Shown: positions 26,032 through 55,922 of the stretch, piece after piece
How positions within the stretch are numbered: position 1 is the stretch's first letter
Layout of the letters: every line of letters starts with the position of its first letter
Assembly (NCBI GenBank): GCA_015709495.1
Contig: CP054189.1
Span: forward strand, 62,001 to 126,000
Source of the DNA: Chthonomonadaceae bacterium
GTDB taxonomy: Bacteria > Armatimonadota > Fimbriimonadia > Fimbriimonadales > Fimbriimonadaceae
Reading direction: 5' to 3'
DNA length: 64,000 nucleotides
The notes under the pieces: model-generated
The model's database searches: none
Seen by the model: only the letters and a program-made list of their open reading frames with translations
What the model was told of the DNA's origin: nothing
Position numbers and translations under genes: made by a program

Positions 26032-26106
26032 GGGGGTATAGCTCAGCGGGAGAGCACCTGCTTTGCAAGCAGGGGGTCGCCGGTTCGAATCCGGCTACCT
26101 CCACCA
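26032..26106 (+). tRNA. tRNA-Ala (TGC), integration target
   Basis: Complete cloverleaf: acceptor GGGGGTA with TACCTCC, D-arm AGCTCAGCGGGAGAGC, anticodon TGC at 26064-26066, T-loop GTTCGAATC, encoded CCA. The 3' end lies in the left direct repeat of the island and overlaps the last codons of the convergent serine recombinase. Confidence 0.96.
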
Positions 26107-27648
26107 ATCTACAGATTTGCCGTTTTCCGCGCTGCCTCCGGCCCCCTCTATTGCCACGTTTAGCATCAAATCGAAGGGCATATTGAGATCTGCGACCACT
26201 TTTTCACCGTCAAATTTGCAGTTCGAGAGCATTGCGGAGACGATTTGGCGTTTTTCGTCCGGACCGGCTGATTTGAACCTAAGATGGGCGGTTTTGGCGA
26301 GTTCTAGAATCTCCACTGCCTCGTCGTAGGAACGCGATTCTTGACCAGACAGGGACGCCATCGTTACCTCGATGTCCCGTATCTCACTAACGAGGGCCTG
26401 CTTCTTTTCTTTGTGTTCTTCACGGCTAAGAACGCCGTCGGCGTAGTCGTCGTAAAGGCGCTCTCGCCTGGATTTCGCTCGTCTTAGCTGGCCCTCCAGT
26501 GCCGCCATCCGGGCGGCATCGACGGTGCGCTCCTCTTCATATTGGGCCCGCACGTCCTTACAGAGTTCTTCGAGAATGAAGTCAGGGAGGACGAGTCCCT
26601 CCAAGAGTGAGACGAAGTAATCGTCAAAAACCTCTTCGCGGACGAACGGTCGTTCGCAGGCGTGCATACCCGTGCAGTGATAGTAGGTGTACTTGCCTTT
26701 CTTGACCTCGCCAGACATTTGGTGGCCGCAGGCGCAGCGAAGCATTCCTCGATAGGCAAGGTTTTTGGCTCCGTAGCGGACACGGCTGGTGCCACGTCCG
26801 GACATCACATCCTGAATCGTCTGCCATGTCGCCTCAGAAATCAGTGGCTCGTGAACGCCGTCATTGTCAACGCCGTTCCATCGTATGATCCCGCAGTAAG
26901 CGGGGTTTCGGAGGATGTCCTCCATCCCGCTCTTGTGGAGTCGATTACCCTTTTTGGTTCTGAGCCCAAGTTCATCCGCTCGAACCGCCAAGGTCTTGAT
27001 CGAATGCGAGCCGCTTGCATATTCGAGCAACAACTGCCGCACGATTGGTCCACGCGCAGGATCTATGGCGATCATCTTGCGTTTCGTTCCTGGCTCGGGG
27101 ACGTTCAAATAGCCGAGGGGCGCGTGGGTGGGATAGATGCCCTGGTGGACCTTTTCGTTCAGGCCCTTGCGGATTTCTTCCGAGAGATTCTCCGAATAGT
27201 TCTCCGCAAAGAGAACCTTGAAGCGGTGGACGAGTCGTTCATGAGCCTTTGCATCCGGTTTCTGCCAGCGATTCTCCTTAAGAAAGAAGGCAGAGATGTT
27301 CAAACTTTCGAGTAGCAAGTCGTCTCTTCGGTTTCGAGTGAGTCGATCTGTCTTTTCTGTGAGGATAAATGCGCCTGGAAACTCAGCCAGCATGCGCACC
27401 ATGTCTGTAAACGCAGGTCGAGCGGACCCTTTCGCGGTGCGGCTTTCAACGAAGTCACCGATAATCTTGCACTTGTTTCGCTCAGCCCACGATTGTGCCT
27501 CGCGAAGTTGGGAATCTAGGCTCCAGCCCTCGTCCTCTTGCTCCTTCGTCGAAACACGCCGGTAGAGCACACATATTGAATCGTCTTTGGCCGATTGTGT
27601 TAGGGCTGATCGTCCAGAAGATAGTTTTGAGTTGCGGTTGATTTGCAT
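26095..27648 (-). CDS. Large serine recombinase (candidate island integrase)
   Basis: 517 residues. Resolvase domain: ICVLYRRVSTKEQ with catalytic Ser33, ILTEKTDRLTRNRRD, and ENLSEEIRKGLNEKVHQGIYP leading into the recombinase domain (PAYCGIIRWNG). A zinc ribbon follows (CACGHQMS with later YYHCTGMHAC), then a coiled-coil segment (about 380-440). This is the serine-integrase/transposon architecture. The last codons overlap the 3' 12 nt of tRNA-Ala, so the integration site supplies the stop. It is the best candidate for island mobilisation. Confidence 0.92.
   Translation of the reverse strand: MQINRNSKLSSGRSALTQSAKDDSICVLYRRVSTKEQEDEGWSLDSQLREAQSWAERNKCKIIGDFVESRTAKGSARPAFTDMVRMLAEFPGAFILTEKTDRLTRNRRDDLLLESLNISAFFLKENRWQKPDAKAHERLVHRFKVLFAENYSENLSEEIRKGLNEKVHQGIYPTHAPLGYLNVPEPGTKRKMIAIDPARGPIVRQLLLEYASGSHSIKTLAVRADELGLRTKKGNRLHKSGMEDILRNPAYCGIIRWNGVDNDGVHEPLISEATWQTIQDVMSGRGTSRVRYGAKNLAYRGMLRCACGHQMSGEVKKGKYTYYHCTGMHACERPFVREEVFDDYFVSLLEGLVLPDFILEELCKDVRAQYEEERTVDAARMAALEGQLRRAKSRRERLYDDYADGVLSREEHKEKKQALVSEIRDIEVTMASLSGQESRSYDEAVEILELAKTAHLRFKSAGPDEKRQIVSAMLSNCKFDGEKVVADLNMPFDLMLNVAIEGAGGSAENGKSVDWWR
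26099..26114. repeat. Left attachment-type direct repeat of the island
   Basis: CTCCACCAATCTACAG spans the tRNA-Ala 3' end and recurs at 55907-55922 as CTCCACCAATCCACAG (15 of 16 identical). Weaker matching continues on the right (TTT then TTTTCC at the same spacing in both copies). Confidence 0.7.
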
Positions 27649-29512: not shown

Positions 29513-29557
29513 TTCGTTTTTCCTTGTTGCGCCCTTGCGCAACAACCGACTACGGGG

Positions 29558-30395: not shown

Positions 30396-32174
30396 ATGAG
30401 AAAGGAACGAGAACTAGCACCGCTACAGTGGGGCGACCCGATGAACGCCACGCTTCGGGTCGCGATCTATGCGCGAAAATCGACGGCGACAGAAGGCAAA
30501 TCGCACAGCTGTGAAGAGCAAATCGAACGATGCCTCCAAGACGCGAAGAGTTTCGGTTTCGCCGAGGCCAACATCGTCGTTTTCGAGGAGCCCGAGGGCC
30601 AGAAGGGCGACTGGTATTGGGACGACGGTCGCGGAAGGCATGATGGCCCTTGCCGACCTGAGTTGAGCAAACTGATGCGCTTGGTTGAGTCTGGAGACAT
30701 TGACGTGGTGATGGTCTACAAGGCAGACCGCTTTTACCGGGATAACGGCGTTGCCGATGCGCTTCTCAAGCGGTTTCGCGAACTTGGTGTCCGGCTCATC
30801 GCCCAAGGAAGAGATGTGGAAGTCCACTCCGCGCGCGGACTATATCAAGCGGCCGTCGATGGCGCTGCTGCCCGGCAATGGCGAGACCAGATTTCCGAGG
30901 ATATTCGGCGCGACCACAGATTCAAGGCTGAGCGTGGGATGTTCTCCCGAAATCCTAGTTGCCTTGGCTTCCGCTCAAAAGGTCGTGGAACCCAAGCTGT
31001 CGATCCGATTCCGGACGAATTGGAAATCGTACGACGGGTCTTTGGGCTCTTCGTCCACGGGGAGAACGGTGAAGGGCCGCTTGGCATCACTGCAATCGCC
31101 AATCGTTTCATGGACGAGGGTGTCCGCGTCGCCGTCTCGGCAAAGAACCACCGGGTCAAGCACCCGGACAAAGTGCACACGTCTCAGATTCGCACGATTC
31201 TGACCAACTGTATGTACGCGGGCAGGTGGAGACATCTCGGCAGAGAGTTTGAAACGGAGCGGCTCTTGGTGCCGGGCTTTGATGGCGAACTAGAGACAGT
31301 CGTTCCGCTGGCTCTCTATGAAGCCGCTCAACGCAAACTTGAACGTAGTACAGTTCCCGGCAGGAAGGGACTTGGTTTAGCCCATTTGCTTACGTCTATT
31401 GCGGTTTGCGGTGAATGCGGTCGCCCGCTTAGAACTCAGCAACGAAAGCGCGGAGATGGCACCGTCAGACTCCAGTTCATATGTTCGCACTTGCGAGGAG
31501 ACCGGCCATGCAGCCGGAAGGGGACTCGGGCCATCCAAGTTGAATTGGTGGACAGTTGGGTTTTTGAGCATCTCTCGCCGCTACTCTGGGCACAACTCAA
31601 GCAACTGGAATCTTCAACAGGACGTGATGGACTTCTGGAGAAGAAGACGGCGCTCGAACGGAAACTTGCTGAACAACGTGAGCGCGAGTCCACCGAACTC
31701 GTGCGCCTGTCCACCGTTCTCGATTCGGTGCAACTGGCGGGAGTTGCCACGGAACTCCGGGAAGAGCGGATAGCGCTTGAAGCGAATCTGGCTGATGTCT
31801 CGAGGCAAATCGCCACTCCAAACCAGCCAGATGCGAGCGAACTGCTGGATCTTCGCGATCTGCCGCTCGCGAAGGCGAAGGAACTCATCCGTCGGTCACT
31901 GCTATGGCTCGCGATGACACATCGGGGTGTTGTGGCAATGACGACATGGGGCACGTATTGCGCTGCACCGTTCGTCGAAGCGCCGAAGGGCTACAAAACG
32001 CAAGAATCGAAGCGGCGCATCGCACCTGTCTGCCCCGTCGCTTCACTTGGGTGCGCCAGTTGGTTTGTGAATCCGGACGAGTTCGTTCGAGGGCAACGCG
32101 AATATCAGCCCGCGCGAATGCGTAACCTCGCGGACCACGAGGTTGTCCACACTCTTTGGCGCGAGGCAGCCTAG
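30396..32174 (+). CDS. Second large serine recombinase
   Basis: 592 residues; MNATLRVAIYARKS at residue 16 is an alternative start. Catalytic Ser29 lies in VAIYARKSTATEG, followed by DIDVVMVYKADRFYRDNG and AARQWRDQISEDIRRDHRFK. The recombinase domain (TILTNCMYAGRWRHLG) and zinc ribbon (CGECGRPLRTQQRKRG with later FICSHLRGDRPC) are present, then a coiled coil (LLEKKTALERKLAEQRERES). It is not closely similar to the first recombinase by eye. It may mobilise a nested element or act in rearrangement. Confidence 0.9.
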   Translation: MRKERELAPLQWGDPMNATLRVAIYARKSTATEGKSHSCEEQIERCLQDAKSFGFAEANIVVFEEPEGQKGDWYWDDGRGRHDGPCRPELSKLMRLVESGDIDVVMVYKADRFYRDNGVADALLKRFRELGVRLIAQGRDVEVHSARGLYQAAVDGAAARQWRDQISEDIRRDHRFKAERGMFSRNPSCLGFRSKGRGTQAVDPIPDELEIVRRVFGLFVHGENGEGPLGITAIANRFMDEGVRVAVSAKNHRVKHPDKVHTSQIRTILTNCMYAGRWRHLGREFETERLLVPGFDGELETVVPLALYEAAQRKLERSTVPGRKGLGLAHLLTSIAVCGECGRPLRTQQRKRGDGTVRLQFICSHLRGDRPCSRKGTRAIQVELVDSWVFEHLSPLLWAQLKQLESSTGRDGLLEKKTALERKLAEQRERESTELVRLSTVLDSVQLAGVATELREERIALEANLADVSRQIATPNQPDASELLDLRDLPLAKAKELIRRSLLWLAMTHRGVVAMTTWGTYCAAPFVEAPKGYKTQESKRRIAPVCPVASLGCASWFVNPDEFVRGQREYQPARMRNLADHEVVHTLWREAA

Positions 32175-32536: not shown

Positions 32537-34132
32537 TCAGTTATCCCGAAACCACTCTAGCATCGCGAGGGTAATGCTGTCATCGGCGAAGCCAACGGCG
32601 TTGGGGTTTCGCAAGACCCGTAAGACCTTCCGGTCATACTCGATGGCGCGAAAGAAGAAGTTTCCCTGCAGTATTGCCGTCGCGTCAAAAAGAAGCTCTA
32701 AGACCGGAACTTCGCCCTGACATGCGACGGCACGCCAGAGAAAACGGGGCATCGATTGAGACAATATCTCCTGGGCATAAGCTCCTGTTATGAGTTGTGC
32801 GTCGAAGAGTTCCGATTTCAATTCAGAACCAGTTGTTAAGAACAAGTCCCATTCCAGCACGCCTGGCAGCGAAACGTACCCAAATCCGCTGAGGTTTCCG
32901 AGCAACGAGGCAAACTCCTTCATCCCTTTTAGGGCCTCCCTAAAGGTAATTCGCATTTTAGGATAAAGGGGAACGATTAAGGTTTCAGGAACCACAAATA
33001 CGCTGCCAAGCTCTTCCGAATCTCCTGCCCAAGACGACTCCATAAAATAGGTCTTTCGGGATCTACGAAGCTCGTCGTCCCACTCATAGAACGAGCCACT
33101 GGCCGATAGAACAAGTCTTGAAAATGGGCCTACTTGGTCGTCATGCGCATAGAACTTGTCAATTCGTGTTGCTCTCCAATACATACTCGTATCCCCGAAC
33201 GTGAGGACCGACTGATTGGACATGTGGTATCCAGTAAGAACGAGAGCATGACGCCCATCCCATCTGCCGCGATCGCGTTTTGCCTTTAGCCTATCCTGCG
33301 TGTCAACAAGGGATGCAACCATGACGACGGGCACTCCCGCTCGGAGGTAAGCGTACGCCTCGGCCTGCAGGTCCTCTCTTCTTGGAACCTCAGAAAAGTG
33401 CGGCTCTAGATTCATCTTTCGAATGGCGTCGCCCATCTGTTCCAAGGTAAGTCCATCCTTGGCGGGAAGAGTCCTAGATTGGAGGCCGTGGAGCGCCATC
33501 GCGTGTTTAGTGATCTCGACTGGGGTTGGCACGGGATGGCCAAATCGCGTTGCAGTGCCCTGAAAAGTCGACCAAAGGGCGGCCGTTGCGCAACGCGCGA
33601 CCTCGGTATCCTGCTCCTGAAAGGCAAGAGAGCGAACCGTGAGGGAGACGCCGAAGAGACTCACATCATAGTTCCGCAACGCCGGGAAATGCCTTCCTGT
33701 TGACTCGGTTGGGTACGTACGCAGGCATGTCCGACCAATGAATGTTTGGGGTAAAGGCTTGACGACAACAAAGCCCAGGTATTGCTTCGAGTTCAATTTC
33801 GAACGAAGAAAAGAAGTTCGGTGCGACTGATTTGCCAGGAAGTTGTCGAGATCTTCCACGGCAAAGCTAGATTTAAAGAAATGAATCCGAACACAGTAGC
33901 GATCTGGAGGACGGAAGCACCGGCCGTAATAGCCTACGAAGTCTTCTAGGTAATCGCGATCGACATAGTGTTCTTCGACGACGATTGTTTTGGCTTTCAG
34001 TGCTCGGAAGTAGTCCCTAAAGTAAATGCTGTGGAACTTCCCTGCAACGAACTCTTCACTTGCGCCAGCATGCTTTTGAAAGAGGCGCTGCAACGCATCG
34101 AAGCTATAGGGATGGACTTGATAGCCGCTCAA
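32537..34132 (-). CDS. Putative C39/papain-like cysteine peptidase
   Basis: 531 residues from a TTG start at 34132 (no usable ATG nearby; AGGTG lies upstream). The C-terminal half contains EQDTEVARCATAALWSTF with a candidate Gln174/Cys181 pair, and GRHALVLTGYHMSN with candidate His295, the layout of C39 and papain-like peptidases; TFGDTSMYW could supply the acid (Asp314). Residues 1-170 have no recognised family. It is the last gene of the minus-strand unit diverging from the ubiquitin-like operon, so it may process or act downstream of it. Activity is predicted only. Confidence 0.5.
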   Translation of the reverse strand: MSGYQVHPYSFDALQRLFQKHAGASEEFVAGKFHSIYFRDYFRALKAKTIVVEEHYVDRDYLEDFVGYYGRCFRPPDRYCVRIHFFKSSFAVEDLDNFLANQSHRTSFLRSKLNSKQYLGFVVVKPLPQTFIGRTCLRTYPTESTGRHFPALRNYDVSLFGVSLTVRSLAFQEQDTEVARCATAALWSTFQGTATRFGHPVPTPVEITKHAMALHGLQSRTLPAKDGLTLEQMGDAIRKMNLEPHFSEVPRREDLQAEAYAYLRAGVPVVMVASLVDTQDRLKAKRDRGRWDGRHALVLTGYHMSNQSVLTFGDTSMYWRATRIDKFYAHDDQVGPFSRLVLSASGSFYEWDDELRRSRKTYFMESSWAGDSEELGSVFVVPETLIVPLYPKMRITFREALKGMKEFASLLGNLSGFGYVSLPGVLEWDLFLTTGSELKSELFDAQLITGAYAQEILSQSMPRFLWRAVACQGEVPVLELLFDATAILQGNFFFRAIEYDRKVLRVLRNPNAVGFADDSITLAMLEWFRDN

Positions 34133-34477: not shown

Positions 34478-34751
34478 GGGCTTCTGACTTGCCTGTAACC
34501 AACAGGTCTCTCTGCGATCGCTGACCGAACGCCCACTTGCCCTGTCCCTGGTCGGAGTCCAGTTGCGCCCGGAGCTTCTTGAGCTTCCGAACAATGGCGG
34601 CATCAAGCTTCATCATGTCGAGGCCAAGACCTTCCAGTCGGCTCTCGACGTCCTCGGCGGTCAGTTGGTCTGCGGGTTCTTCGGCATTCACCGAAAACGT
34701 GGCTAGCGAGGCCAGTAGGTTCAGGTTGTTGTTCTTCATGGCGTGGTTCAC
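34419..34751 (-). CDS. Small acidic hypothetical protein
   Basis: 110 residues from GTG 34751, which forms a GTGA overlap with the sigma-like gene stop; the ATG at 34739 is an alternative. A helical middle (AEDVESRLEGLGLDMMKLDAAI) precedes a charged tail. Unknown; an anti-sigma or adaptor role is conceivable by position only. Confidence 0.5.
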   Translation of the reverse strand: MNHAMKNNNLNLLASLATFSVNAEEPADQLTAEDVESRLEGLGLDMMKLDAAIVRKLKKLRAQLDSDQGQGKWAFGQRSQRDLLVTGKSEAHDDVEDPLETDERSEDSGQ

Positions 34752-35386
34752 TTGGTGCTGAGAAATGGCTTGCCCTTGGCGTTAATGACTTGGGTTCGAA
34801 GTGAGTCAAGTTCCTTGCGCAACGCATCGCATCGATATCGTGTGATCCCCAGTTGCTCTTGGAGGGCTTTCCAGTTCACTTCACTCCGATCTGGGTCGTC
34901 ATGGAACTGGTCTCGCGCGGCGATCAGGAGCCTCTTCAGGTCTCCGTCCGCCGCTTCCACGAGGGAAGTGACGATTTCCCTCGCATCCTGCTCGGCAGCA
35001 TCCGGCCCCGGACCTTCGATGGCTGCCGCTTCCTCCAAGGGCACCTGTGGCCATCGTGAGCGGCTCACCCATTTTTCCGCGTCCCGAGTAATGAACGGAC
35101 GGAGGCAGTTCATCACGAGGTACTTCCAGAATCGTTCGTCGACTGGCTTGGTCAAATCGCCTCGCTCCGTATCAAACCTAGTGGACGAGTCCTTAGTGCA
35201 TCGTGCAAAAGCTTCTGAAACGGCTGCAAGGGCGTAGTCGAACGCACGCTCAGCGTAGTTCCCACCGCCGAAGCCATGCCTGGCCATCATTCGGATGGCC
35301 TCGTAGGTCAGCTTCTTTACGATTACCGCCCAACGCCGGTCATCGTGAGAATCTAGGAAGCGTTTAAGTTTGTCGTCCAATATCAA
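34748..35386 (-). CDS. Sigma-70-like (ECF-type) regulator
   Basis: 212 residues. Region-2-like features: YAERAFDYALAAVSEAFA, then FDTERGDL and FWKYLVMNCLRPFITRDAEKW, resembling the sigma 2 helices with the usual aromatic run. The C-terminal WKALQEQLGITRYRCDALRKEL resembles the region-4 helix-turn-helix. It heads the minus-strand unit and is divergent from the multi-ubiquitin gene, so it may control both. It could instead be a sigma-like DNA-binding protein. Confidence 0.5.
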   Translation of the reverse strand: MILDDKLKRFLDSHDDRRWAVIVKKLTYEAIRMMARHGFGGGNYAERAFDYALAAVSEAFARCTKDSSTRFDTERGDLTKPVDERFWKYLVMNCLRPFITRDAEKWVSRSRWPQVPLEEAAAIEGPGPDAAEQDAREIVTSLVEAADGDLKRLLIAARDQFHDDPDRSEVNWKALQEQLGITRYRCDALRKELDSLRTQVINAKGKPFLSTK

Positions 35387-35542: not shown

Positions 35543-36070
35543 ATGGCAGAGAATATTGAGATTGAAGAAGCCGACATCGAGGAATGCGCGAAGAGCGGAC
35601 TTGACGTGCCCCACGCTCGAAAGTTCCGGGTGCGAATCGACGACCATGTACACGTTGTTGAGGGAGCGATCCACGATCGCGAGTTTTTGCTTGGCCTCGT
35701 GGGAAAGAACTCTGAGGAATTCGAACTTGTCGAAGAGTTTGCGATTGCTGATCAGAACGAAGTCGTCGAGAAGTCGATACAAGTTGACCTGCGGATGAAG
35801 GGGCTAAGGGGCTTTGTCACCGCGCATCGCCACCATGTGCCAAGACTCGTGGTGATCAAGATTGACGACAAAGAGTACAAGGTGAACGAGGGCCCAACAA
35901 CCGGTGCGAAGCTGCGATCCCTCCCACCTGTTCCCGACGATCGAGATCTGTGGCTTGAGCGCAAGGGGGATGATGAGAAGATCACACCAGATGCAATCGT
36001 TGATGTTCGGGATCACATGTGCTTCTACACAGCGCCGAGCACCATCAATCCGGGGGCAAGGCGGCTATGA
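35543..36070 (+). CDS. Multi-ubiquitin-like protein (two UBL domains)
   Basis: 175 residues; a strong GGAGG at 35532-35536 precedes the ATG. Residues about 27-97 (FRVRIDDHVHVVEGAIHD) and 101-171 (VVIKIDDKEYKVNEGP) are two beta-grasp repeats of the multiubiquitin type (PF14452 family as I know it). The second ends HMCFYTAPSTINPGARRL. A JAB peptidase could trim the last four residues to expose Gly171. The gene overlaps the E2 gene (ATGA). The UBL would be conjugated to targets by the next two genes. Confidence 0.88.
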   Translation: MAENIEIEEADIEECAKSGLDVPHARKFRVRIDDHVHVVEGAIHDREFLLGLVGKNSEEFELVEEFAIADQNEVVEKSIQVDLRMKGLRGFVTAHRHHVPRLVVIKIDDKEYKVNEGPTTGAKLRSLPPVPDDRDLWLERKGDDEKITPDAIVDVRDHMCFYTAPSTINPGARRL

Positions 36071-36465
36071 TGCAACTCCCGGACGACGACGAGCAGTTTC
36101 TCAGTGAACTCGGGCTACCTTGGAACCTCCACCCCGATGGGGATTCAGCAGGATTCCTGGTTGTCGACCAATTCTGCGTGTCAGGAGGTGGCCTCGGCCC
36201 CAGCCCGATTCAACTGATGATTCGCATTCCTGCGCAGTACCCCCTGTCCAAATTGGACATGTGGTACTGCTCGCCTGCCGTCCGCCACCAATCGACCGGC
36301 GCTTTCCCTCCACAAGCCGACGTGCATGAAACTTTCCTCGGAATTAGCTGGCAGCGGTTCTCACGACACCTAAATGACGGTTGCTGGAAACCCGGCATCG
36401 ATGGCCTCCGGACCTTCTTTCGTTTCATCCTTCGCGAACTGCAAGGCAAGGATGGGCACAAGTGA
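36067..36465 (+). CDS. Prokaryotic E2-like protein (Prok-E2 family E)
   Basis: 132 residues from ATG 36067, an ATGA overlap. It reads LPDDDEQFLSELGLPWNLHP, IQLMIRIPAQYPLSKLDMWY, and HETFLGISWQRFSRHLNDG then CWKPGIDGLRTFF, matching the family-E E2 fold (ubiquitin-conjugating-like) with the WxPG equivalent of the E2 WSPAL segment. No Cys lies where E2 enzymes carry the catalytic one; Ser94 and Ser99 are near, and Cys106 just before WKPG. It overlaps the next gene (GTGA). Confidence 0.85.
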   Translation: MMQLPDDDEQFLSELGLPWNLHPDGDSAGFLVVDQFCVSGGGLGPSPIQLMIRIPAQYPLSKLDMWYCSPAVRHQSTGAFPPQADVHETFLGISWQRFSRHLNDGCWKPGIDGLRTFFRFILRELQGKDGHK

Positions 36466-37823
36466 AGTTCACGCTGACCCTTTTGGAAAGCCATATGGAT
36501 GAGCTTCGCTCACTCACTTTTTCCCTCCCTGGCTGCGAAGGAGCGGCGTTCATTCTATGTTCGCGTTCCGAAACCCAGGAGGAGCATCGGCTCATTGCTC
36601 ACACAATCGTTCCTGTCGCGGACGCCGACTACCTTGAGCGCAGACCTGACTTCCTCTCCTTGGCTTCGGACTGCTATGTGCGCGCCGCCAAGGAAGCTCG
36701 GAATGGAGGGTACAGCGTGGTGTTCGCGCACTCTCATCCTGGAGGATTCTTGGAGTATTCAGATCAAGACGACCGCGAAGAGCCGAAGCTTCAACAGTTC
36801 TTGGGTAGCCGCGTGCCGGAGCCAATACATGGATCTCTTGTCCTAACGGCTGACGGAGTCATCGGTCGGGTATGGAAGCAAGGAGCCTTCACGCCAATAG
36901 ATCGTGTAAGAGTGATCGGTCGCCGATTTGCCTTTCATGACCGAACGCGCAAGCGATCCGTCATGGAGTTCTTCGACCGACAAGTTCGAGCTTTCGGTGA
37001 TGATGCACAGCGTATTCTTCAGAGCCTCCATATCGGCGTTGTGGGTGCTGGCGGCACGGGATCGGCCGTCGCAGAGCAACTGATCCGTCTTGGCGTTGGC
37101 AAGATCAGTGTCTTTGACGGTGACAAGCTTGACACAACCAACATTAACCGCGTCTTTGGAAGCGGATCGAAGGACGGCGGCAAGCATAAGGTGGACCTTG
37201 TTGGGTCAAATGCCAAGAGGATTGGCGTCGGAACTCGAATCAACGAGTATCCCGATCATATTTCTCATCTGGAGACGGCACTCCACCTAAGAGATTGTGA
37301 TGTCGTCTTCGGGTGCACCGATTTGGAAGCGCCGAGAGGGTTGCTGATTAGTCTGGCCCTTCGCTACTACATTCCAGTTTTCGACATGGGCGTCAAGATT
37401 GACTCGCAGGATGAGAAGATTCACGACGTCATCGGGCGTGTCACGCTACTGCTTCCTGGTGAAGCCTGCCTATTCTGTCGTGGACGAATCTCAGGTGAAG
37501 GCATCCTCTATGAAGGCATGTCACCAGAGGAACGCGAAATCCGAGCAAAGGAAGGATACGCGCCTGAACTCGGGTCACCTAATCCGGCAGTTATCACGTT
37601 CACATCGATGGTGGCGTCGCTCGCGATCAACGAATTGCTCCACCGCCTAACGGGCTTCATGGGGGAGGAAAAGGAGTCATCCGAGGTTCTTTGCTTCTTT
37701 GACAAGCTGGTGTTCCGGAGGAATCGTCCGCAGCCTGGGCCAGATTGTCTCTGTGGCCTAAAGACGCGTTGGGGGAAGGGTGATTCCAGACTGTTCCTGG
37801 ACGTTGTCTGGAGGAGTGGCTAG
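36462..37823 (+). CDS. JAB deubiquitinase-like/E1 (ThiF) fusion protein
   Basis: 453 residues from the GTG at 36462 (GTGA overlap with the E2 stop). Residues about 1-150 form a JAB/MPN domain with the exact zinc motif H90-x-H92-x7-S100-x2-D103 in FAHSHPGGFLEYSDQDD. Residues 185-420 are an E1/ThiF adenylation domain: IGVVGAGGTGSAVAEQLIRLGVG, VFDGDKLDTTNINR (Asp219, Arg230), CTDLEAPRG, and zinc pairs CLFC (336/339) and CLCG (429/431). No Cys is present in the region 340-410, where E1s place the thioester Cys. The protein would both activate and remove UBLs. Confidence 0.9.
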   Translation: MKFTLTLLESHMDELRSLTFSLPGCEGAAFILCSRSETQEEHRLIAHTIVPVADADYLERRPDFLSLASDCYVRAAKEARNGGYSVVFAHSHPGGFLEYSDQDDREEPKLQQFLGSRVPEPIHGSLVLTADGVIGRVWKQGAFTPIDRVRVIGRRFAFHDRTRKRSVMEFFDRQVRAFGDDAQRILQSLHIGVVGAGGTGSAVAEQLIRLGVGKISVFDGDKLDTTNINRVFGSGSKDGGKHKVDLVGSNAKRIGVGTRINEYPDHISHLETALHLRDCDVVFGCTDLEAPRGLLISLALRYYIPVFDMGVKIDSQDEKIHDVIGRVTLLLPGEACLFCRGRISGEGILYEGMSPEEREIRAKEGYAPELGSPNPAVITFTSMVASLAINELLHRLTGFMGEEKESSEVLCFFDKLVFRRNRPQPGPDCLCGLKTRWGKGDSRLFLDVVWRSG

Positions 37824-38236
37824 CACCATTCCACACGCCCATTTCGAATCCAATAATGCGAGCCGCAAGTTTGGGAATCCACGGAAGGAAACACACTGTA
37901 CTGCCCCAACCGAGTCATCTCGATGTTCCACTTCGGAGACTGGGACCGCATCAGATTGAGACAGACAATCTCACCACAACCGCAAGGACACGTGAAGTAA
38001 AGCCACTTTTCGTGGCCCTCCGGGGCAAGCACGGCGAAATGCCCTTGCTCCGCCAGTGACATGGCTTCTTGCCGTGTTTCCGCGTATGCGAGACGCCCGA
38101 GTTCTGCCGGAGCTAATCCGGTTCCGTGTTTCGCAGCCTTGGCCCGGAACGACCGGATACGAGTCCAGCAAAGCCCAACAGAGGTAGCCACCCAACGACC
38201 GAATGACGCGGCGATGCTTCCGAGACGCCGAATCAC
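37820..38236 (-). CDS. DUF6527-like protein convergent with the E1 gene
   Basis: 138 residues from a GTG at 38236, which overlaps the stop of an Rhs leader remnant (GTGA). Features are FTCPCGCGEIVCLNL (Cys83, 85, 87) and VFPSVDSQTCGSHYWIRNGRVEWC, the signature of DUF6527, a family often next to E1/E2/multi-ubiquitin genes. Its stop TAG interleaves with that of the E1-JAB gene (shared CTAG). It may be an additional UBL peptidase or target-linked factor; the role is inferred. Confidence 0.7.
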   Translation of the reverse strand: MIRRLGSIAASFGRWVATSVGLCWTRIRSFRAKAAKHGTGLAPAELGRLAYAETRQEAMSLAEQGHFAVLAPEGHEKWLYFTCPCGCGEIVCLNLMRSQSPKWNIEMTRLGQYSVFPSVDSQTCGSHYWIRNGRVEWC

Positions 38237-38424
38237 GATTGATCAAGCACTCCGACTTGCGCGAAGAGATCGGGATGCGCAGAGTAAGGATTGCGAAGAA
38301 CCGGGTCCACCACCGAGCCGTGACTCTGGGCAAACTGCCGCTGGGTCCCGCCCGCCGAAGGAGAACGATCCCAAGGAGAAGGAGCGCTCGCGTCGAAACT
38401 GCGGGAAGAGGCGGAGGGGGTCAT
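38233..38424 (-). pseudogene. Truncated Rhs N-terminal leader
   Basis: 63 codons read MTPSASSRSFDASAPSPWD and match the first 50 residues of the three Rhs proteins (QSHGSVVDPVL block), then diverge and stop. The stop overlaps the DUF6527 GTG. It is the remnant of a fourth Rhs copy whose body has been lost, probably by recombination. Confidence 0.75.
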
Positions 38425-38483
38425 GGGGGACTTCTATGCTAGGAGATGACGGGGCAGACCGGGGAACGCGTTGCGCGGGCAAC

Positions 38484-39050
38484 TCAGCTTCCCGGCAATC
38501 TCTTTACGATATTCAAAGCTCCCTGCTTGGTAATGACAATGTAGACGCTCCTATCTGGGACGAACGGAATAGCCTGAAGCTCGGCCCGCCAACTCTTCCG
38601 AGACTTATCATCCGCCGTAATTGTACACTGAAACTCCGTCATTGACGGCACTACTTTCCTTACCCACAGTATAAGGTCAACCACGATATCGGGAGCCACA
38701 CCCGCCGATGTTCCACTGAAAGCGTCGCGTGACACATGCAACGATTGGATTTGCCCACTCAATCCTACCGTCAAGTCTGCCAATACAGCTACTGGCTTCC
38801 GCCCCCCCTTTATTATCGTTGATGATGTGGGACGGAGTATGGTGATTCGTGAAATCTTGTGCTTTGAGTCTTCGGAGAATCGAACAACGAACGGAGGTTG
38901 CAGAGCAGATGTGGCGGCTACGCTCTTCATCGCAATACTGAGTTCGCTCCGGTTTACTTCCTCAATTTGATCCATTTCAGTCACACAAATAGTTGCCACT
39001 GTCAAGATTGCAGCGCTTGATAGAACGTAGCATTTGGCGGCAATACTCAA
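38484..39050 (-). CDS. Exported or membrane protein after Rhs1 (candidate immunity)
   Basis: 188 residues from a TTG at 39050 that forms TTGA with the Rhs1 stop; ATGs at 39077 and 39068 are alternatives. MSIAAKCYVLSSAAILTVATICV is a signal anchor. The rest has no recognised family. As it directly follows Rhs1 and differs from the proteins after Rhs2 and Rhs3, it may protect against the Rhs1 tip. Confidence 0.55.
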   Translation of the reverse strand: MSIAAKCYVLSSAAILTVATICVTEMDQIEEVNRSELSIAMKSVAATSALQPPFVVRFSEDSKHKISRITILRPTSSTIIKGGRKPVAVLADLTVGLSGQIQSLHVSRDAFSGTSAGVAPDIVVDLILWVRKVVPSMTEFQCTITADDKSRKSWRAELQAIPFVPDRSVYIVITKQGALNIVKRLPGS

Positions 39051-42000
39051 GGCAAGACTACTCCACATCCTCGGCATATCTCTTTAACCTTGTCACTTGG
39101 TATCGTATTCCCCGCCTTGCACTTCTTCTTCAATAACGCACAATGGCGGCATTTTTCCTTGTGGCACTGCGTCGCGAACACCGAGCCGTCATTGGGACAC
39201 TTCTCAGCCAAGCACTTGACAGATATGTGATATGCATGACATTCTTCTTTGTCTGGGTTTTTCCCCGGATCGAAAAAGGGTTGGCATACGGGACCAGAGC
39301 TTGGGCAAGTGATGTCGTCAAAGTGATCGCGCTCGTGCCGTTTGTAACACTCCTCTATTACCGTCCCTTTCCACGCATCAGGACCCCAGTAACAAGGGCA
39401 TTTTGTTTGCCCCACGCAGATTACGCCGCCCCACCCAACAGCCTTGCTTTTGTATTTCGCACACTCCGCGTCACAGTCCACTGTGAACCCTGAAGGGTCA
39501 ATGGAGTTAGCCGGATTCGCTATGGCATATCTGAATGCAAAATCGAAAGGCCATAGTGGATCGGTCTGCATCCACCTGCCGAGTTTCTTGTACAACTCTC
39601 TGGCCCGCACGTAATCTCTTTCTGCTGTGTCGTTGTAGTAGCCGTAGGCGGCGATGTAGACGAAGGGGATGGAGATCTTGGTCAGAGCAGAGGCGCGAGT
39701 GCCGTAGGGATATAGCTCAATGAGACTTCCAAGCGAAGCGCCTGCGGAGATCTCTTTGACGAGAGATCCAAGCGGATCGGTGAGCAGGTCTTTGCTTCCG
39801 CAGGAAACGATCTCCGAGTCCAGGGTGAGCACCACGCGGTTCTGGGTCGGCTCGTTCAGGAGCAGGTAGTCGCTTCCGTCCCACACCATCGTGGTGACGT
39901 CGAGAGTCGGCGGGTCTTGGCTGACGTTCGTCGTGGCCACGGACCGCCTGAGCCCGTCGCCGTCAAAGCTGTAGGTGGTCTTGTCTCCGGATGGTTCGGT
40001 AACGACAGCGAGTTGGTCTTGCCCGTTGTAGGCGTAGCCGGTGGTGGAGTTCCCCGTGATCTCGCTCTCCAGGGCTCCGTAGCCAGTCCAGGCATAGGTA
40101 GTGAGACTCGCTCCTTCCACCATTGTGACCAAGCGGTCCGCCGCGTTGAAGGTGAAGGTCCTCGGGAAGTTTCCGCCTTCCCACATCGTCTTGAGGTTCC
40201 CAACCCCGTCGAGGGTGTAGGTGCAGACCTGCCCCGCCTTTTGCTGGCCGGTCAAGCGGTACAGATCGTCGTAGCTCCAGGTGATGGGGTTGCCGTCGAG
40301 GTTTCTCGTGAGGCGGTTGCCCACTGGGTCGTAGCCGTCCACGATGGTGCAAAGGGGAGTCGCTCCCGAATACTCGATCTGCGTCGTCAGTTGCCCCCGG
40401 TTGTCGAAGGCATACTTCCTCGTCGTGCCGTTGCCCAGCATCATGGTGGTGCGGCGGGAGTCCGCGTCGTAGGCCATGGTGTAAAGCGCGTTGCCCGGTT
40501 TCTGCGCGGTGGCGAGGCGGTTGAGAGAGTCGAACGCGAACGTGAAGAGCCCGGTAGCGACCAGGTTCAGGCTTGTGCGGTTTCCATTGGGGTCGTAACC
40601 ATAGGCTTGGACGAATCCCGCCGCATCCGTCTGGCCGCTCTGCCTTCCGAGGGCGTCGAAGCTGTACGTGCTGGTGCCGCCCCAGTCGACCATCGTGGTC
40701 CTGCGTCCCACCCTGTCATAAGCGAACGTCGCGATCTTGCCGTCCGGGAACATGGTGGCGGTGTTCTGGCCCGCCGCGTCGAACGTATAGCTCCGCACCC
40801 GGTTTGCAGCGTCGGCCATCGTGACGATCCGGCTTGCGAGGTCGTACCCATATTGCCTGGCGTTTTCGCCAAGCTGGTTCTGCACCACTGCCAGCCGACC
40901 AACGGTGTCATAGATATTGGTGACGTAGCCGCCGTTGGCGTCCCTGGTCGAGACGAGCCTGCTTTGCGCGTCGAACGCGTAGGTGGTCCGGTACCCAAGC
41001 GCATCGATCGTCGCTTCGGGAAGATTACGGTTTGAGAAATATGCGCTCGTCGTCAGCTTGCCGTTCGCGTCCTGCACCACGGTCCGGTTGCCCGCTGGGT
41101 CATAGCTGTAGCTGGTCCGGTATCCAAGAGCGTCTTGGCTCGCCGAAAGCTGCCCCGCCGCGTCGAAGATTTGGGTCGTCCTGAACCCCAGCGGCGAAAC
41201 CGAGGCGATCTGCCTTCCCACTTTGTCGAAGACGCTCGTGGCGAGGTTCCCTTGGGGGTCCATCCGCGCAACCAGGTCGCGGTTGTCGTACACGCTCGTC
41301 CAGACGTTGCCTCTCGGGTCCTGCACCCCGGTGAGCCGGTTTGAAAAGTCGTAGGTGTAGCTCGTCCTGAAGCCAAGGGCGTTCTCGTCCGCCACTTTGC
41401 GGTTTCCGGTGTAATGGACAGTCGTGAGGTTGCCCAGCGCGTCCATCATCCCCGACGGGCGGTTCATGTTGTCGAAGTTGTAGGTGGTGACAAAGCCGAG
41501 CGGATTCATCTCCGTCACCCGGCTCTTGAAGCGGTTGTAGGTGTAGCTGGTTCGCTCGTTCAATGGGTTTGCGACCGCGACGAGCATGCACGAATCCCAC
41601 ACGAAGGTCGTTCTGGCCCCATTGAGGTCCACCGAGGCGACGAGGTTGTCCCCTGCGTCGTACACCATCGATCTGGCGACCGAATCCCCCGGCTGCTGCA
41701 CGCTCGTCCTTCGCCCCAACTCGTCATAGCCGTAGGTCACCACGCTGCCGTCGCTGTAGAGCGTGCTGGCAAGGTTCCCGAACCCGTCGTAGGCGTGGGT
41801 GGTGAAGAGCCCTCTGCCGTCTTGAGTGCTCAGGAGGCTTCCGTCCCCGTTCCAGGCGTAGGTGGTCCTTCTGCCCAAGGGGTCGATCCTCGCCGTCATC
41901 CTCCTGGAGCCGTCGTACGTGAAGCTCCAGATGCTGCCCAAGGCGTCCGTCATCGTCGTGAGGTTCAGGCTCGCATCATATTGGTACGTGGTCGCATAGC

Positions 42001-43150
42001 CCAGAGCGTCGAAGGCCACCAGCGGCTGCCCCGAGCCGTTGTAGCTCACGCTCGTCACCGTGCCGTAAGGCTCGATCCTCTTCGTCTGATATCCGTTGCT
42101 GTCGTAGGCGAAGCTCGTCGTGTACCCTTCCGGGTGGATGATCCTGTCGATTCCAAATCCGCCCGCGATGTAGGTGGTGATGGCACCGCTGGGGTCTTGG
42201 CGCTGGGAGCCGCTCCAGGTCATGGGGCCGCCGTAGGCGTACGTCCACACCCCCGAGCCTGCCGCCACGCTCGCCACCCGGTTTGCGCCGTCGTAAGCGT
42301 ACGTCGTGGCAAACCCTCTCGGGTCTTCGATCCGGGTGAGCAGGTCCCCCGTGTAGGAGTTCTTCGTCGTGCAGCCAAGCGGAGTCGTCAGGGTCGTCAA
42401 CTGCCGCGAGCCGTCGTACATCATCGTCCAGCGGCGGCCGCCCCAGTCCTCGATGTAGTCGAGCAGACTCGTAGGCGATCCTCCCGCCGTGTACGCGAAG
42501 GTGACCTTGCGGCCACCAGGCACCTCGATGTTTTTCAAGAGGTTCGTCTCGGGGCTCGTCCCGTAGGTGAAGGTGTGGCGGTTGCCGCTGGCGTCTTCCA
42601 CCCTCCCGATCTGGTACCGCACCGGAGAGCCGCCCTGGTTCTTGTCGTACACCATCTTCTTCCCGTCGGGGAAGGTCTCGATGAAGGCGTCTAAGCTGGA
42701 GTTGTAGACGAGGCTCGTTCCCGCATACTGGGTGGACACCCCGCTGTACGTCGTCGTGAAACCGCTCGTGGACCCGGCCGTGAACTCGTACACCTTCTCA
42801 TCGCCGCGCACCACCTGGGCCGAGTTGCCCGACTCCTCGTTCTTCAGCACGTAGCAGTTCGTCGAGAGCGAGCGCTTCTTGCCGTACGCCCCATTGGCGC
42901 TGGAGCGAGAGTTGTAGAAGAGGTTGATCTCAAGGTCGAAGCCCTTCGCCTTGAGCAAAATGTCCGGGTCCACAAGCAAAGCTCCCGACACCGGGTCGGG
43001 ATGCGGAAAGTGGGGGTTGTGCAAAACTGGGTCCACCACCGAGCCATGACTCTGGGCCAACTGCCGCTGGGTCCCGCCCGCCGAAGGAGAACGATCCCAA
43101 GGACTGGGAGCACTCGCATCGAAAGATCTGGCGGAGGACGAAGTGGACAT
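39047..43150 (-). CDS. Rhs/YD-repeat protein 1 with HExxH-containing tip
   Basis: 1367 residues. No secretion signal peptide is evident; the leader is Ser/Pro-rich (SFDASAPSPWDRSPSAGG). Residues about 50-1190 are dozens of YD repeats (TTYAYDGANR, YSYDPAGNRT) that should form the Rhs shell. The core ends RARELYKKLGRWMQTDPLWP, the usual tip boundary. The tip (about 167 residues) is Cys-rich and contains YKRHERDHFDD, a possible HExxH zinc-protease motif. Compared with copies 2 and 3 the core is almost identical, while leader and tip differ. Confidence 0.9.
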   Translation of the reverse strand: MSTSSSARSFDASAPSPWDRSPSAGGTQRQLAQSHGSVVDPVLHNPHFPHPDPVSGALLVDPDILLKAKGFDLEINLFYNSRSSANGAYGKKRSLSTNCYVLKNEESGNSAQVVRGDEKVYEFTAGSTSGFTTTYSGVSTQYAGTSLVYNSSLDAFIETFPDGKKMVYDKNQGGSPVRYQIGRVEDASGNRHTFTYGTSPETNLLKNIEVPGGRKVTFAYTAGGSPTSLLDYIEDWGGRRWTMMYDGSRQLTTLTTPLGCTTKNSYTGDLLTRIEDPRGFATTYAYDGANRVASVAAGSGVWTYAYGGPMTWSGSQRQDPSGAITTYIAGGFGIDRIIHPEGYTTSFAYDSNGYQTKRIEPYGTVTSVSYNGSGQPLVAFDALGYATTYQYDASLNLTTMTDALGSIWSFTYDGSRRMTARIDPLGRRTTYAWNGDGSLLSTQDGRGLFTTHAYDGFGNLASTLYSDGSVVTYGYDELGRRTSVQQPGDSVARSMVYDAGDNLVASVDLNGARTTFVWDSCMLVAVANPLNERTSYTYNRFKSRVTEMNPLGFVTTYNFDNMNRPSGMMDALGNLTTVHYTGNRKVADENALGFRTSYTYDFSNRLTGVQDPRGNVWTSVYDNRDLVARMDPQGNLATSVFDKVGRQIASVSPLGFRTTQIFDAAGQLSASQDALGYRTSYSYDPAGNRTVVQDANGKLTTSAYFSNRNLPEATIDALGYRTTYAFDAQSRLVSTRDANGGYVTNIYDTVGRLAVVQNQLGENARQYGYDLASRIVTMADAANRVRSYTFDAAGQNTATMFPDGKIATFAYDRVGRRTTMVDWGGTSTYSFDALGRQSGQTDAAGFVQAYGYDPNGNRTSLNLVATGLFTFAFDSLNRLATAQKPGNALYTMAYDADSRRTTMMLGNGTTRKYAFDNRGQLTTQIEYSGATPLCTIVDGYDPVGNRLTRNLDGNPITWSYDDLYRLTGQQKAGQVCTYTLDGVGNLKTMWEGGNFPRTFTFNAADRLVTMVEGASLTTYAWTGYGALESEITGNSTTGYAYNGQDQLAVVTEPSGDKTTYSFDGDGLRRSVATTNVSQDPPTLDVTTMVWDGSDYLLLNEPTQNRVVLTLDSEIVSCGSKDLLTDPLGSLVKEISAGASLGSLIELYPYGTRASALTKISIPFVYIAAYGYYNDTAERDYVRARELYKKLGRWMQTDPLWPFDFAFRYAIANPANSIDPSGFTVDCDAECAKYKSKAVGWGGVICVGQTKCPCYWGPDAWKGTVIEECYKRHERDHFDDITCPSSGPVCQPFFDPGKNPDKEECHAYHISVKCLAEKCPNDGSVFATQCHKEKCRHCALLKKKCKAGNTIPSDKVKEICRGCGVVLP
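39549..43100 (-). repeat. Rhs core repeat, copy 1
   Basis: Near-identical to 44143-47787 and 48654-52298 at the nucleotide level; begins at the GGCCATAG before the tip boundary. The upstream 50 nt of copy 1 and its 5' leader differ from the other two. Confidence 0.9.
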
Positions 43151-43616: not shown

Positions 43617-46600
43617 CTAACCAAACATCATGTCGCGCCAGTCTCCGGGACGCCCTATTGCCCCTGAACATTCCGATGACTTAGGGCTATAGAACAGCCA
43701 AGTAGTCATTGGTGGTCCGGTAAAACAGTCGATAATAATCTGGGTAGCGAAACCGGAGCAGCGCTTTCCAGCGCCCTTTCGTTTCCAGTAGCAGTTTGCG
43801 TAACCTGGGAATGGCCGGTCACAATGGCAGACCTCAGTATTAAGCGTCCAGTTCGCTACAAATTTCTTGTACTTGCATGTGCAGATCTTCGGATCGCACA
43901 ATTCAAGGGGAATACTAATTGAAATGGGACCGGCACCGATGGAAACGGTTACCTCGCCACCCGAGGCAGATACATTACAAGTTCCTTTTTCAAAAGGTGG
44001 CTTTTTCGGGTCGTATATCGGTTTGCCTAAATAGGTTCTGATGTTCCCAACATCCTGAATTGTCTCACATCGCGGGTCCAGACCACTGTTATCTCTATAT
44101 GATACTGGTGAGTTGAAAGAGTATTCGTAGGACTCCGCTGTGGGCCATAGTGGATCGGTTTGCATCCACCTGCCCAGTTTCTTGTACAACTCTCTGGCCC
44201 GCACGTAATCTCTTTCTGCTGTGTCGTTGTAGTAGCCGTAGGCGGCGATGTAGACGAAGGGGATGGAAATCTTGGTCAGAGCAGAGGCGCGAGTGCCGTA
44301 GGGATATAGCTCAATGAGACTTCCAAGCGAAGCGCCTGCGGAGATCTCTTTGACGAGAGATCCAAGCGGATCGGTGAGCAGGTCTTTGCTTCCGCAGGAA
44401 ACGATCTCCGAGTCCAGGGTGAGCACCACGCGGTTCTGGGTCGGCTCGTTCAGGAGCAGGTAGTCGCTTCCGTCCCACACCATCGTGGTGACGTCGAGAG
44501 TCGGCGGGTCTTGGCTGACGTTCGTCGTGGCCACGGACCGCCTGAGCCCGTCGCCGTCAAAGCTGTAGGTGGTCTTGTCTCCGGATGGTTCGGTAACGAC
44601 AGCGAGTTGGTCTTGCCCGTTGTAGGCGTAGCCGGTGGTGGAGTTCCCCGTGATCTCGCTCTCCAGGGCTCCGTAGCCAGTCCAGGCATAGGTAGTGAGA
44701 CTCGCTCCTTCCACCATTGTGACCAAGCGGTCCGCCGCGTTGAAGGTGAAGGTCCTCGGGAAGTTTCCGCCTTCCCACATCGTCTTGAGGTTCCCAACCC
44801 CGTCGAGGGTGTAGGTGCAGACCTGCCCCGCCTTTTGCTGGCCGGTCAAGCGGTACAGATCGTCGTAGCTCCAGGTGATGGGGTTGCCGTCGAGGTTTCT
44901 CGTGAGGCGGTTGCCCACTGGGTCGTAGCCGTCCACGATGGTGCAAAGGGGAGTCGCTCCCGAATACTCGATCTGCGTCGTCAGTTGCCCCCGGTTGTCG
45001 AAGGCATACTTCCTCGTCGTGCCGTTGCCCAGCATCATGGTGGTGCGGCGGGAGTCCGCGTCGTAGGCCATGGTGTAAAGCGCGTTGCCCGGTTTCTGCG
45101 CGGTGGCGAGGCGGTTGAGAGAGTCGAACGCGAACGTGAAGAGCCCGGTAGCGACCAGGTTCAGGCTTGTGCGGTTTCCATTGGGGTCGTAACCATAGGC
45201 TTGGACGAATCCCGCCGCATCCGTCTGGCCGCTCTGCCTTCCGAGGGCGTCGAAGCTGTACGTGCTGGTGCCGCCCCAGTCGACCATCGTGGTCCTGCGT
45301 CCCACCCTGTCATAAGCGAACGTCGCGATCTTGCCGTCCGGGAACATGGTGGCGGTGTTCTGGCCCGCCGCGTCGAACGTATAGCTCCGCACCCGGTTTG
45401 CAGCGTCGGCCATCGTGACGATCCGGCTTGCGAGGTCGTACCCATATTGCCTGGCGTTTTCGCCAAGCTGGTTCTGCACCACTGCCAGCCGACCAACGGT
45501 GTCATAGATATTGGTGACGTAGCCGCCGTTGGCGTCCCTGGTCGAGACGAGCCTGCTTTGCGCGTCGAACGCGTAGGTGGTCCGGTACCCAAGCGCATCG
45601 ATCGTCGCTTCGGGAAGATTACGGTTTGAGAAATATGCGCTCGTCGTCAGCTTGCCGTTCGCGTCCTGCACCACGGTCCGGTTGCCCGCTGGGTCATAGC
45701 TGTAGCTGGTCCGGTATCCAAGAGCGTCTTGGCTCGCCGAAAGCTGCCCCGCCGCGTCGAAGATTTGGGTCGTCCTGAACCCCAGCGGCGAAACCGAGGC
45801 GATCTGCCTTCCCACTTTGTCGAAGACGCTCGTGGCGAGGTTCCCTTGGGGGTCCATCCGCGCAACCAGGTCGCGGTTGTCGTACACGCTCGTCCAGACG
45901 TTGCCTCTCGGGTCCTGCACCCCGGTGAGCCGGTTTGAAAAGTCGTAGGTGTAGCTCGTCCTGAAGCCAAGGGCGTTCTCGTCCGCCACTTTGCGGTTTC
46001 CGGTGTAATGGACAGTCGTGAGGTTGCCCAGCGCGTCCATCATCCCCGACGGGCGGTTCATGTTGTCGAAGTTGTAGGTGGTGACAAAGCCGAGCGGATT
46101 CATCTCCGTCACCCGGCTCTTGAAGCGGTTGTAGGTGTAGCTGGTTCGCTCGTTCAATGGGTTTGCGACCGCGACGAGCATGCACGAATCCCACACGAAG
46201 GTCGTTCTGGCCCCATTGAGGTCCACCGAGGCGACGAGGTTGTCCCCTGCGTCGTACACCATCGATCTGGCGACCGAATCCCCCGGCTGCTGCACGCTCG
46301 TCCTTCGCCCCAACTCGTCATAGCCGTAGGTCACCACGCTGCCGTCGCTGTAGAGCGTGCTGGCAAGGTTCCCGAACCCGTCGTAGGCGTGGGTGGTGAA
46401 GAGCCCTCTGCCGTCTTGAGTGCTCAGGAGGCTTCCGTCCCCGTTCCAGGCGTAGGTGGTCCTTCTGCCCAAGGGGTCGATCCTCGCCGTCATCCTCCTG
46501 GAGCCGTCGTACGTGAAGCTCCAGATGCTGCCCAAGGCGTCCGTCATCGTCGTGAGGTTCAGGCTCGCATCATATTGGTACGTGGTCGCATAGCCCAGAG

Positions 46601-47789: not shown

Positions 47790-48167
47790 TCATAAGGAAA
47801 CTCGCCTGAGCGGTATGGGCTTAACCACCTCATCTATGCCCGTCTCCGTACGCGCGTGTATGAGGCGGCCAGAATCGAACTCTAACACTAGCGCGTAGTG
47901 CGGGGACACGACCGAAAGCGGGTCCGATCTCGTTATCACCCAATATGGTTGGGGTCCTTCGAACTTCTCAATGTTGGTGTTGGCTGGCAGGGCGAGACGA
48001 ACCTCTTGTTGCGTCATTCCTCTTCGTAACGTTCGGGAGACCCACTCTGGGCTAACCAACGGAACACTCTTGATGAGCCACAAGCACCACAACAGAGGTA
48101 TAGAAACTATTGCCATCCACGTTAGGAACCGATGCACGCCTCTTTGGCCGACCCTGAGTGCTGTCAT
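47790..48167 (-). CDS. Membrane-anchored protein after Rhs3 (candidate immunity)
   Basis: 125 residues from ATG 48167, an ATGA overlap with the Rhs3 stop. MTALRVGQRGVHRFLTW then AIVSIPLLWCLWLIKSV is one transmembrane helix. RRGMTQQEVRLALP resembles the helix of SmpA/OmlA-like (BamE-fold) domains, a weak hint. Sits between Rhs3 and Rhs2. Confidence 0.6.
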   Translation of the reverse strand: MTALRVGQRGVHRFLTWMAIVSIPLLWCLWLIKSVPLVSPEWVSRTLRRGMTQQEVRLALPANTNIEKFEGPQPYWVITRSDPLSVVSPHYALVLEFDSGRLIHARTETGIDEVVKPIPLRRVSL

Positions 48168-55806: not shown

Positions 55807-55906
55807 GATCTATTGTACAATTGACGACATTGCGCTGTCCTAGCAAGCGAGCCTTTCAGCGCGATGACCTGGCATCGGCGAGGCAGTTCTAAGAGCGTCC
55901 ACCAAT

Positions 55907-55922
55907 CTCCACCAATCCACAG
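55907..55922. repeat. Right attachment-type direct repeat of the island
   Basis: CTCCACCAATCCACAG, 15 of 16 matching the tRNA-Ala 3' repeat. A TCCACCAATC unit is also duplicated in tandem just before it (55898-55907), which may record an earlier insertion. Confidence 0.65.

Follow-up and report, generated by a model that had tools for sequence, protein, structure and literature searches.

The question raised by this locus was whether three overlapping genes, encoding a ubiquitin-like (Ubl) protein, an E2-like protein and a JAB-E1 fusion, make up a complete conjugation operon on a mobile island, as an initial annotation of the DNA had stated, and to which known system they belong. The window, as we call the whole stretch of 64,000 nucleotides that was analyzed, is from a Chthonomonadaceae bacterium, and all coordinates given below are positions within it. 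The locus is a Bub (bacterial ubiquitination-like) operon of an already known kind, with some local variation. Gene content, homology, folds, conservation, the island and its empty site were established directly here. We consider it probable that the full description holds, namely a Bub operon that is the same as type 6e of Iyer 2006, was acquired horizontally on a tRNA-Ala island, and acts by the atypical tagging proposed below. The local peculiarities are an apparently chimeric BubA with two Ubl domains that ends in ...INPG-ARRL, an inverted DUF6527 gene, and the lack of an HTH/ImmA regulator pair.

Gene content of the operon and relationship to known systems

In the region from 35543 to 37823, three genes overlap on the plus strand, and all reading frames are open. 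The first gene (35543..36070) encodes a BubA-like protein of 175 aa with two Ubl domains, recognized by Pfam Multi_ubiq, by homology of domain 1 and by folds. The second (36067..36465, ATG at 36067) encodes a BubB-like protein of 132 aa of Prok-E2 family E, recognized by PF14462, PDB 9eae_C and a structural model, and the third (36462..37823, GTG start at 36462) encodes a BubCD-like JAB/JAMM isopeptidase-ThiF/E1 fusion of 453 aa, recognized by PDB and Pfam matches. The overlaps described earlier, ATGA between genes 1 and 2 (36067-36070) and GTGA between genes 2 and 3 (36462-36465), were found in the sequence, and the family calls were right. The initial annotation overlooked a fourth gene, which encodes a DUF6527 zinc-finger protein (37820..38236, minus strand; PF20137, 72 bits). 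It is convergent with the JAB-E1 gene, and the two stop codons overlap in a common CTAG. A promoter search gave no clear candidate, with predicted sites no more frequent than in shuffled sequences.

The JAB-E1 protein matched the Citrobacter BubCD chains 9ea4, 9ea5 and 9eav in the PDB (E=1.5e-44, residues 15-399). ThiF matched residues 172-430 with 113.6 bits; Prok-JAB, at 22.5 bits (E=1.1e-4, residues 10-111), was slightly under the Pfam cut-off of 25. All of the JAMM residues (E26, H90, H92, S100, D103) are nevertheless present in the JAB domain, and the adenylation domain is intact (GxGGTGS, NxNR, Lys and CTD...R). The zinc and nucleotide motifs reported for this protein thus stand, and both the JAMM residues and the adenylation motifs are conserved in homologues. 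The E1 domain also has a CxxC...CxC zinc site. Outside this site, the only widely common cysteine is the C of CTD, beside the adenylation Asp. We rejected it as an E1 catalytic cysteine: the same residue is found in ThiF/MoeB enzymes, and it is therefore no sign of a thioester-forming E1.

BubA consists of domain 1 (approximately residues 25-95) and domain 2 (approximately residues 101-171), with one above-threshold Multi_ubiq match, to domain 2 (24.8 bits; Pfam cut-off 24.5). The protein ends in ...STINPG171-ARRL, a Gly followed by a tail of four residues. Gly171 is conserved among homologues, whose tails have 0-4 residues, and this pattern is compatible with JAB trimming the tail. The top folds for the BubA model, which was good for domain 2 only and had low confidence for domain 1, were the solved multi-ubiquitin proteins 9cd2, 9d59 and 9d5a; the sequence match to 9cd2 was weak (E=0.18). 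The nearest sequence to domain 1 (residues 1-100) was a Ubl from the Citrobacter-type clade (L030, E=1.3e-8); domain 2 instead came closest to the clade with INPG termini (L046, L040 and L002; E=4e-12 to 2e-11). Because the affinities of the two domains differ and the clade mates of the window carry a single Ubl domain, BubA seems, from these sequence comparisons, to be a chimera in which domain 1 was added from another Bub lineage.

Homologues of BubCD, BubB and BubA are all present in the window. The solved Citrobacter Bub proteins (PDB 9ea4, 9ea5, 9ea8, 9eae, 9eav) match those of the window in the JAB-E1 fusion, alignable over 385 residues, in a Cys-less E2 with WQRxSRH, in the multi-Ubl protein, and in all gene roles. 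The two systems differ in that Citrobacter BubCD lacks the CxxC...CxC zinc site kept by the window E1, the window E1 is in another sub-clade, and the Ubl there terminates in INPG followed by a short tail rather than in TEG as in the Citrobacter-type rows. The gene set and order were matched in 20 other loci from Proteobacteria, Cyanobacteria, Deinococcota, Acidobacteriota and relatives of the host; these loci came from plasmids and genomes and were selected for a similar E1 or E2.

As the initial annotation had noted, related gene sets were already described in comparative genomics; the Citrobacter Bub structures document this operon type as well. Type 6e of Iyer, Burroughs and Aravind 2006 comprises a polyUbl, an inactive E2/RWD-like domain, a JAB fused to an E1, and protein Y, which binds metal and has the spacing C-x3-C-x(35-38) (PMC1779556). 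The one to three Ubl repeats of that type correspond in the window to Multi_ubiq plus a homologous N-terminal Ubl; an E2/RWD-like protein without a catalytic Cys lies between the Ubl and the E1; and a JAB domain, below the Pfam cut-off but with all JAMM residues, is at the N-terminus of the E1-like module. The DUF6527 protein has the zinc pattern C-x3-C-x36-C-x2-H. We infer that it is protein Y, because the cysteine spacing and the gene position agree. It differs from type 6e in being encoded on the opposite strand, and the last zinc pair is printed as H-x2-C in PMC1779556 but is C-x2-H in the window.

Two other systems were rejected on architecture. Bil (BilABCD) has the same Ubl, E2, JAB and E1 logic and a two-domain Ubl, but its JAB and E1 are encoded separately, its E1 is a pseudodimer that includes a Cys domain, and the catalytic residue of its E2 is Cys138 (PMC11354881). 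In the window, a single adenylation domain is fused to JAB, and the E2 has SRH in place of the CEHH motif that holds the Bil cysteine. The type II CBASS Cap2/Cap3 and 6A-6B systems have in common with the window the similarity of the ThiF/E1 adenylation domain, and there is no E2-E1 fusion, CD-NTase or metallo-beta-lactamase partner beside the window operon.

The E2-like protein, DUF6527 and a proposed route of tagging

BubB was matched by Prok-E2_E (PF14462) with 111.6 bits (E=2.6e-32) and, in a search of PDB chains with its sequence, by Citrobacter BubB (9eae_C, E=1.4e-8). Its AlphaFold model (pLDDT 82) superimposed on Citrobacter BubB with Z=17.5 and an rmsd of 1.9 Å over 124 residues (VIA-align), and more weakly on eukaryotic E2/UEV folds (Z about 8-9). 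In the alignment of homologues, S99-R100-H101 is at the active-site position and there is no catalytic Cys; the candidates C37, C68 and C105 were rejected, as none is conserved. S-R-H or an equivalent is found at this site in 17 of 18 Bub-branch homologues (window not counted), and the motif is WQRFSRH in the window and WQRWSRH or a near variant in the Bub rows. The sister E2 branch mostly has CLH at the aligned stretch (g41-type rows); L035 and L036 have Cys there too, and L034 has Ser. As aligned, then, Ser99 is at a position that is mostly Cys in sister E2s. With SRH in place of Cys, the claim of a "complete" operon, in the sense of a thioester cascade, is unsupported. The pattern suggests either a Ser-based step or a non-catalytic role of the E2, and sequence alone is compatible with both.

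In genus g41 of the same order (L008-L029, L071-L080), nearly every genome has a family-E E2 that carries CLH and often comes together with a JAB-E1, in contrast to the sporadic Bub operons.

Of the loci from the same clades, all 20 besides the window carry DUF6527, in each case on the strand of the operon; it is inverted only in the window, which could mean that the unit is partly disarranged. Including the window, it adjoins all 21 examined operons of the SRH/HVH branches and none of the four loci of the neighboring E2 branch (L034-L037), a branch that mostly has Cys at that position. From this distribution we tentatively suggest, as a possibility on the doubtful side, that the family-E E2 without Cys may have DUF6527 as an obligate functional partner, either E3-like or a zinc finger that forms complexes, and would itself work through Ser-Arg-His instead of Cys. 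A search of the PDB with DUF6527 returned designed propellers and one chance match only.

Two features next to DUF6527 were also observed. In the INPG-clade plasmids L040 (5718-6617) and L046 (5601-6536), a further conserved ORF lies directly downstream of DUF6527 (E=1.7e-111 between the two), and its counterpart is absent from the window. In the window, the DUF6527 gene is beside a truncated Rhs N-terminus (38270-38428, minus strand), about 83-88% identical to three full copies, which marks the junction between the Bub cassette and an Rhs array.

Reversible protein tagging with BubA by an atypical route is, judging from these comparisons, the most likely function of the gene products. The JAB domain would cut the BubA tail after Gly171 and free ARRL, as suggested by the conserved Gly and the short variable tails, and the E1 domain would adenylate Gly171 with ATP, consistent with its intact motifs and its homology to solved BubCD. 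The Cys-less E2 would dock on the JAB-E1 protein and present or carry BubA, probably using Ser99-Arg100-His101, so that the intermediate would be of ester type and not a thioester. BubA would then be joined to target proteins and could be taken off again by the JAB domain, with DUF6527 as a fixed zinc-finger partner, perhaps in target or complex recognition. Work by Ye in 2026 reportedly argues for an atypical route.

The same proteins could be arranged differently. Ser99 could have a structural role while the E2 serves purely as scaffold, which is what Iyer et al. proposed. In that case, the E2-like protein would be a catalytically dead RWD/UEV-like fold that only positions BubA or the substrate, while the E1 hands BubA straight to targets. 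There is no Cys across the family, Iyer et al. 2006 judged this type of domain inactive for want of Cys (PMC1779556), and our model is equally near to Cys-less Tsg101-type UEV folds and to active E2s (Z about 8.7 each). The near invariance of S-R-H at the active-site position in the Bub branch argues against a dead scaffold, as does the Cys at the aligned position in sister E2s, which suggests that a catalytic role was kept, and we regard the scaffold as unlikely. The closest solved Ubls are multi-ubiquitin filaments of Citrobacter and Methylobacterium, and from them one might suppose that the system is mainly a sensor or stress device based on Ubl assembly into filaments, and not target tagging. 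We find this improbable, since such a device would have no need of an intact E1 and JAB. In addition, the Ubl of the filament type is said to have three domains, unlike the two domains of mixed lineage in the window BubA.

The tRNA-Ala island

The mobile island proposed in the initial annotation was borne out. A tRNA-Ala gene (TGC; 26032..26106, plus strand; ARAGORN) is the integration site. Its 3' end carries the attL core TCCACCAATC (26100..26109, plus strand), and attR (55898..55917, plus strand) consists of two tandem copies of TCCACCAATC, at 55898 and 55908; the chance expectation for this core in the window is 0.16. In a genome of the same species that lacks the insert (G062), the tRNA-Ala gene joins directly to the sequence of window position 55907 onward. 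From this empty site and the copies of TCCACCAATC, the insert extends from about 26110 to 55907 (29.8 kb). There are two large serine recombinases, both with PF00239, PF07508 and PF13408: a Ccr-like one by attL (26095..27648, minus strand), which is likely the island integrase, and a second at 30396..32174 (plus strand). Two insertions, one after the other, may have left the tandem att core at the right end, which together with the two different recombinases suggests stacked insertions at tRNA-Ala.

The operon is sparsely distributed among the relatives of the host. Within the window's family, four of 85 genomes contain the E2 family; the same-species genome G062 does not. In the E1 tree, the window falls in a clade of five rows (97/97) with L003, an acidobacterium with 45% identity to the window, L002, a Variovorax, L040 and L046. 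All members of this clade end the Ubl in an INPG-type terminus; in the clade mates, INPG or LNPG is followed by one or two residues, and TEG or TTEG is the ending of most other rows. A genome of the window's own family (G011, L030) falls instead in the Citrobacter-type E1 clade. Horizontal acquisition follows from the nearest operon relatives being an acidobacterium and Variovorax rather than members of the family.

The island has other cargo. Three Rhs/YD-repeat proteins of 1363-1375 aa (39047-43150, 43617-47744 and 48164-52255, minus strand) are nearly identical over most of their length and differ at their C-terminal ends, resembling a polymorphic-toxin array, and small ORFs between them may be immunity genes. 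A GHKL-type ATPase of 534 aa (27941-29545, minus strand; HATPase_c_3, 36.6 bits; no PADLOC match) adjoins an orphan ORF of 248 aa, possibly another island-borne system.

Regulation and possible functions

An HTH/ImmA-type pair or fusion lies upstream in 15 of the 20 other loci (14 by homology search and L038 by annotation), and the window operon has no HTH/ImmA homologue beside it. Without this pair, control of the window operon may differ or be lost. Of 544 reported Bub operons, 219 are near CapW or CapH+CapP and 59 are near CapK+CapS (PMC13373217). Such DNA-damage regulators, frequent at Bub operons, are common but not defining. Two genes divergent from the operon were considered as replacement regulators, for a protein of 212 aa that looks sigma-factor-like by eye (34748-35386, minus strand) and for a protein of 531 aa (32537-34132, minus strand). 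Both were rejected, with no homologue near other Bub loci. The 531-aa protein has sparse relatives in nine other genomes of the phylum and on four plasmids (26-41% identity); no relative of the 212-aa protein was found on plasmids, nor, in a search run without a positive control, in seven of these genomes.

The biological purpose of the operon may be a stress or a phage response. The missing regulator pair, the inverted DUF6527 and the truncated Rhs start adjoining it would be expected of a decaying passenger on the island, a reading that we consider highly improbable given four open frames, intact translational overlaps, and the presence of all catalytic and zinc residues. An anti-phage defence role is a possibility that we take seriously without favoring it. 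The operon is mobile, sporadic and near recombinases, its relatives carry HTH/ImmA regulators of a type tied to immune operons (PMC13373217), and Bil and CBASS, to which it is related, are defence systems. The link to phage defence made in the initial annotation holds for those two systems; for Bub operons themselves, protection against phage is undemonstrated according to the same 2026 paper (PMC13373217). No PADLOC model matched the Ubl, E2 or DUF6527, and the matches to E1 cover the adenylation domain only. No relative of the JAB-E1 protein was found in viral and phage collections, a result that is neutral for defence.

These results add a Bub operon to a genome most of whose close relatives have none, and show that Bub was transferred on a serine-recombinase island, for which there is a clear empty site. 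They also provide comparative arguments that a Ser-Arg-His motif would take the place of the cysteine in the E2, and that DUF6527, a zinc finger predicted in 2006 and without a matching solved structure here, would be a constant part of the pathway.
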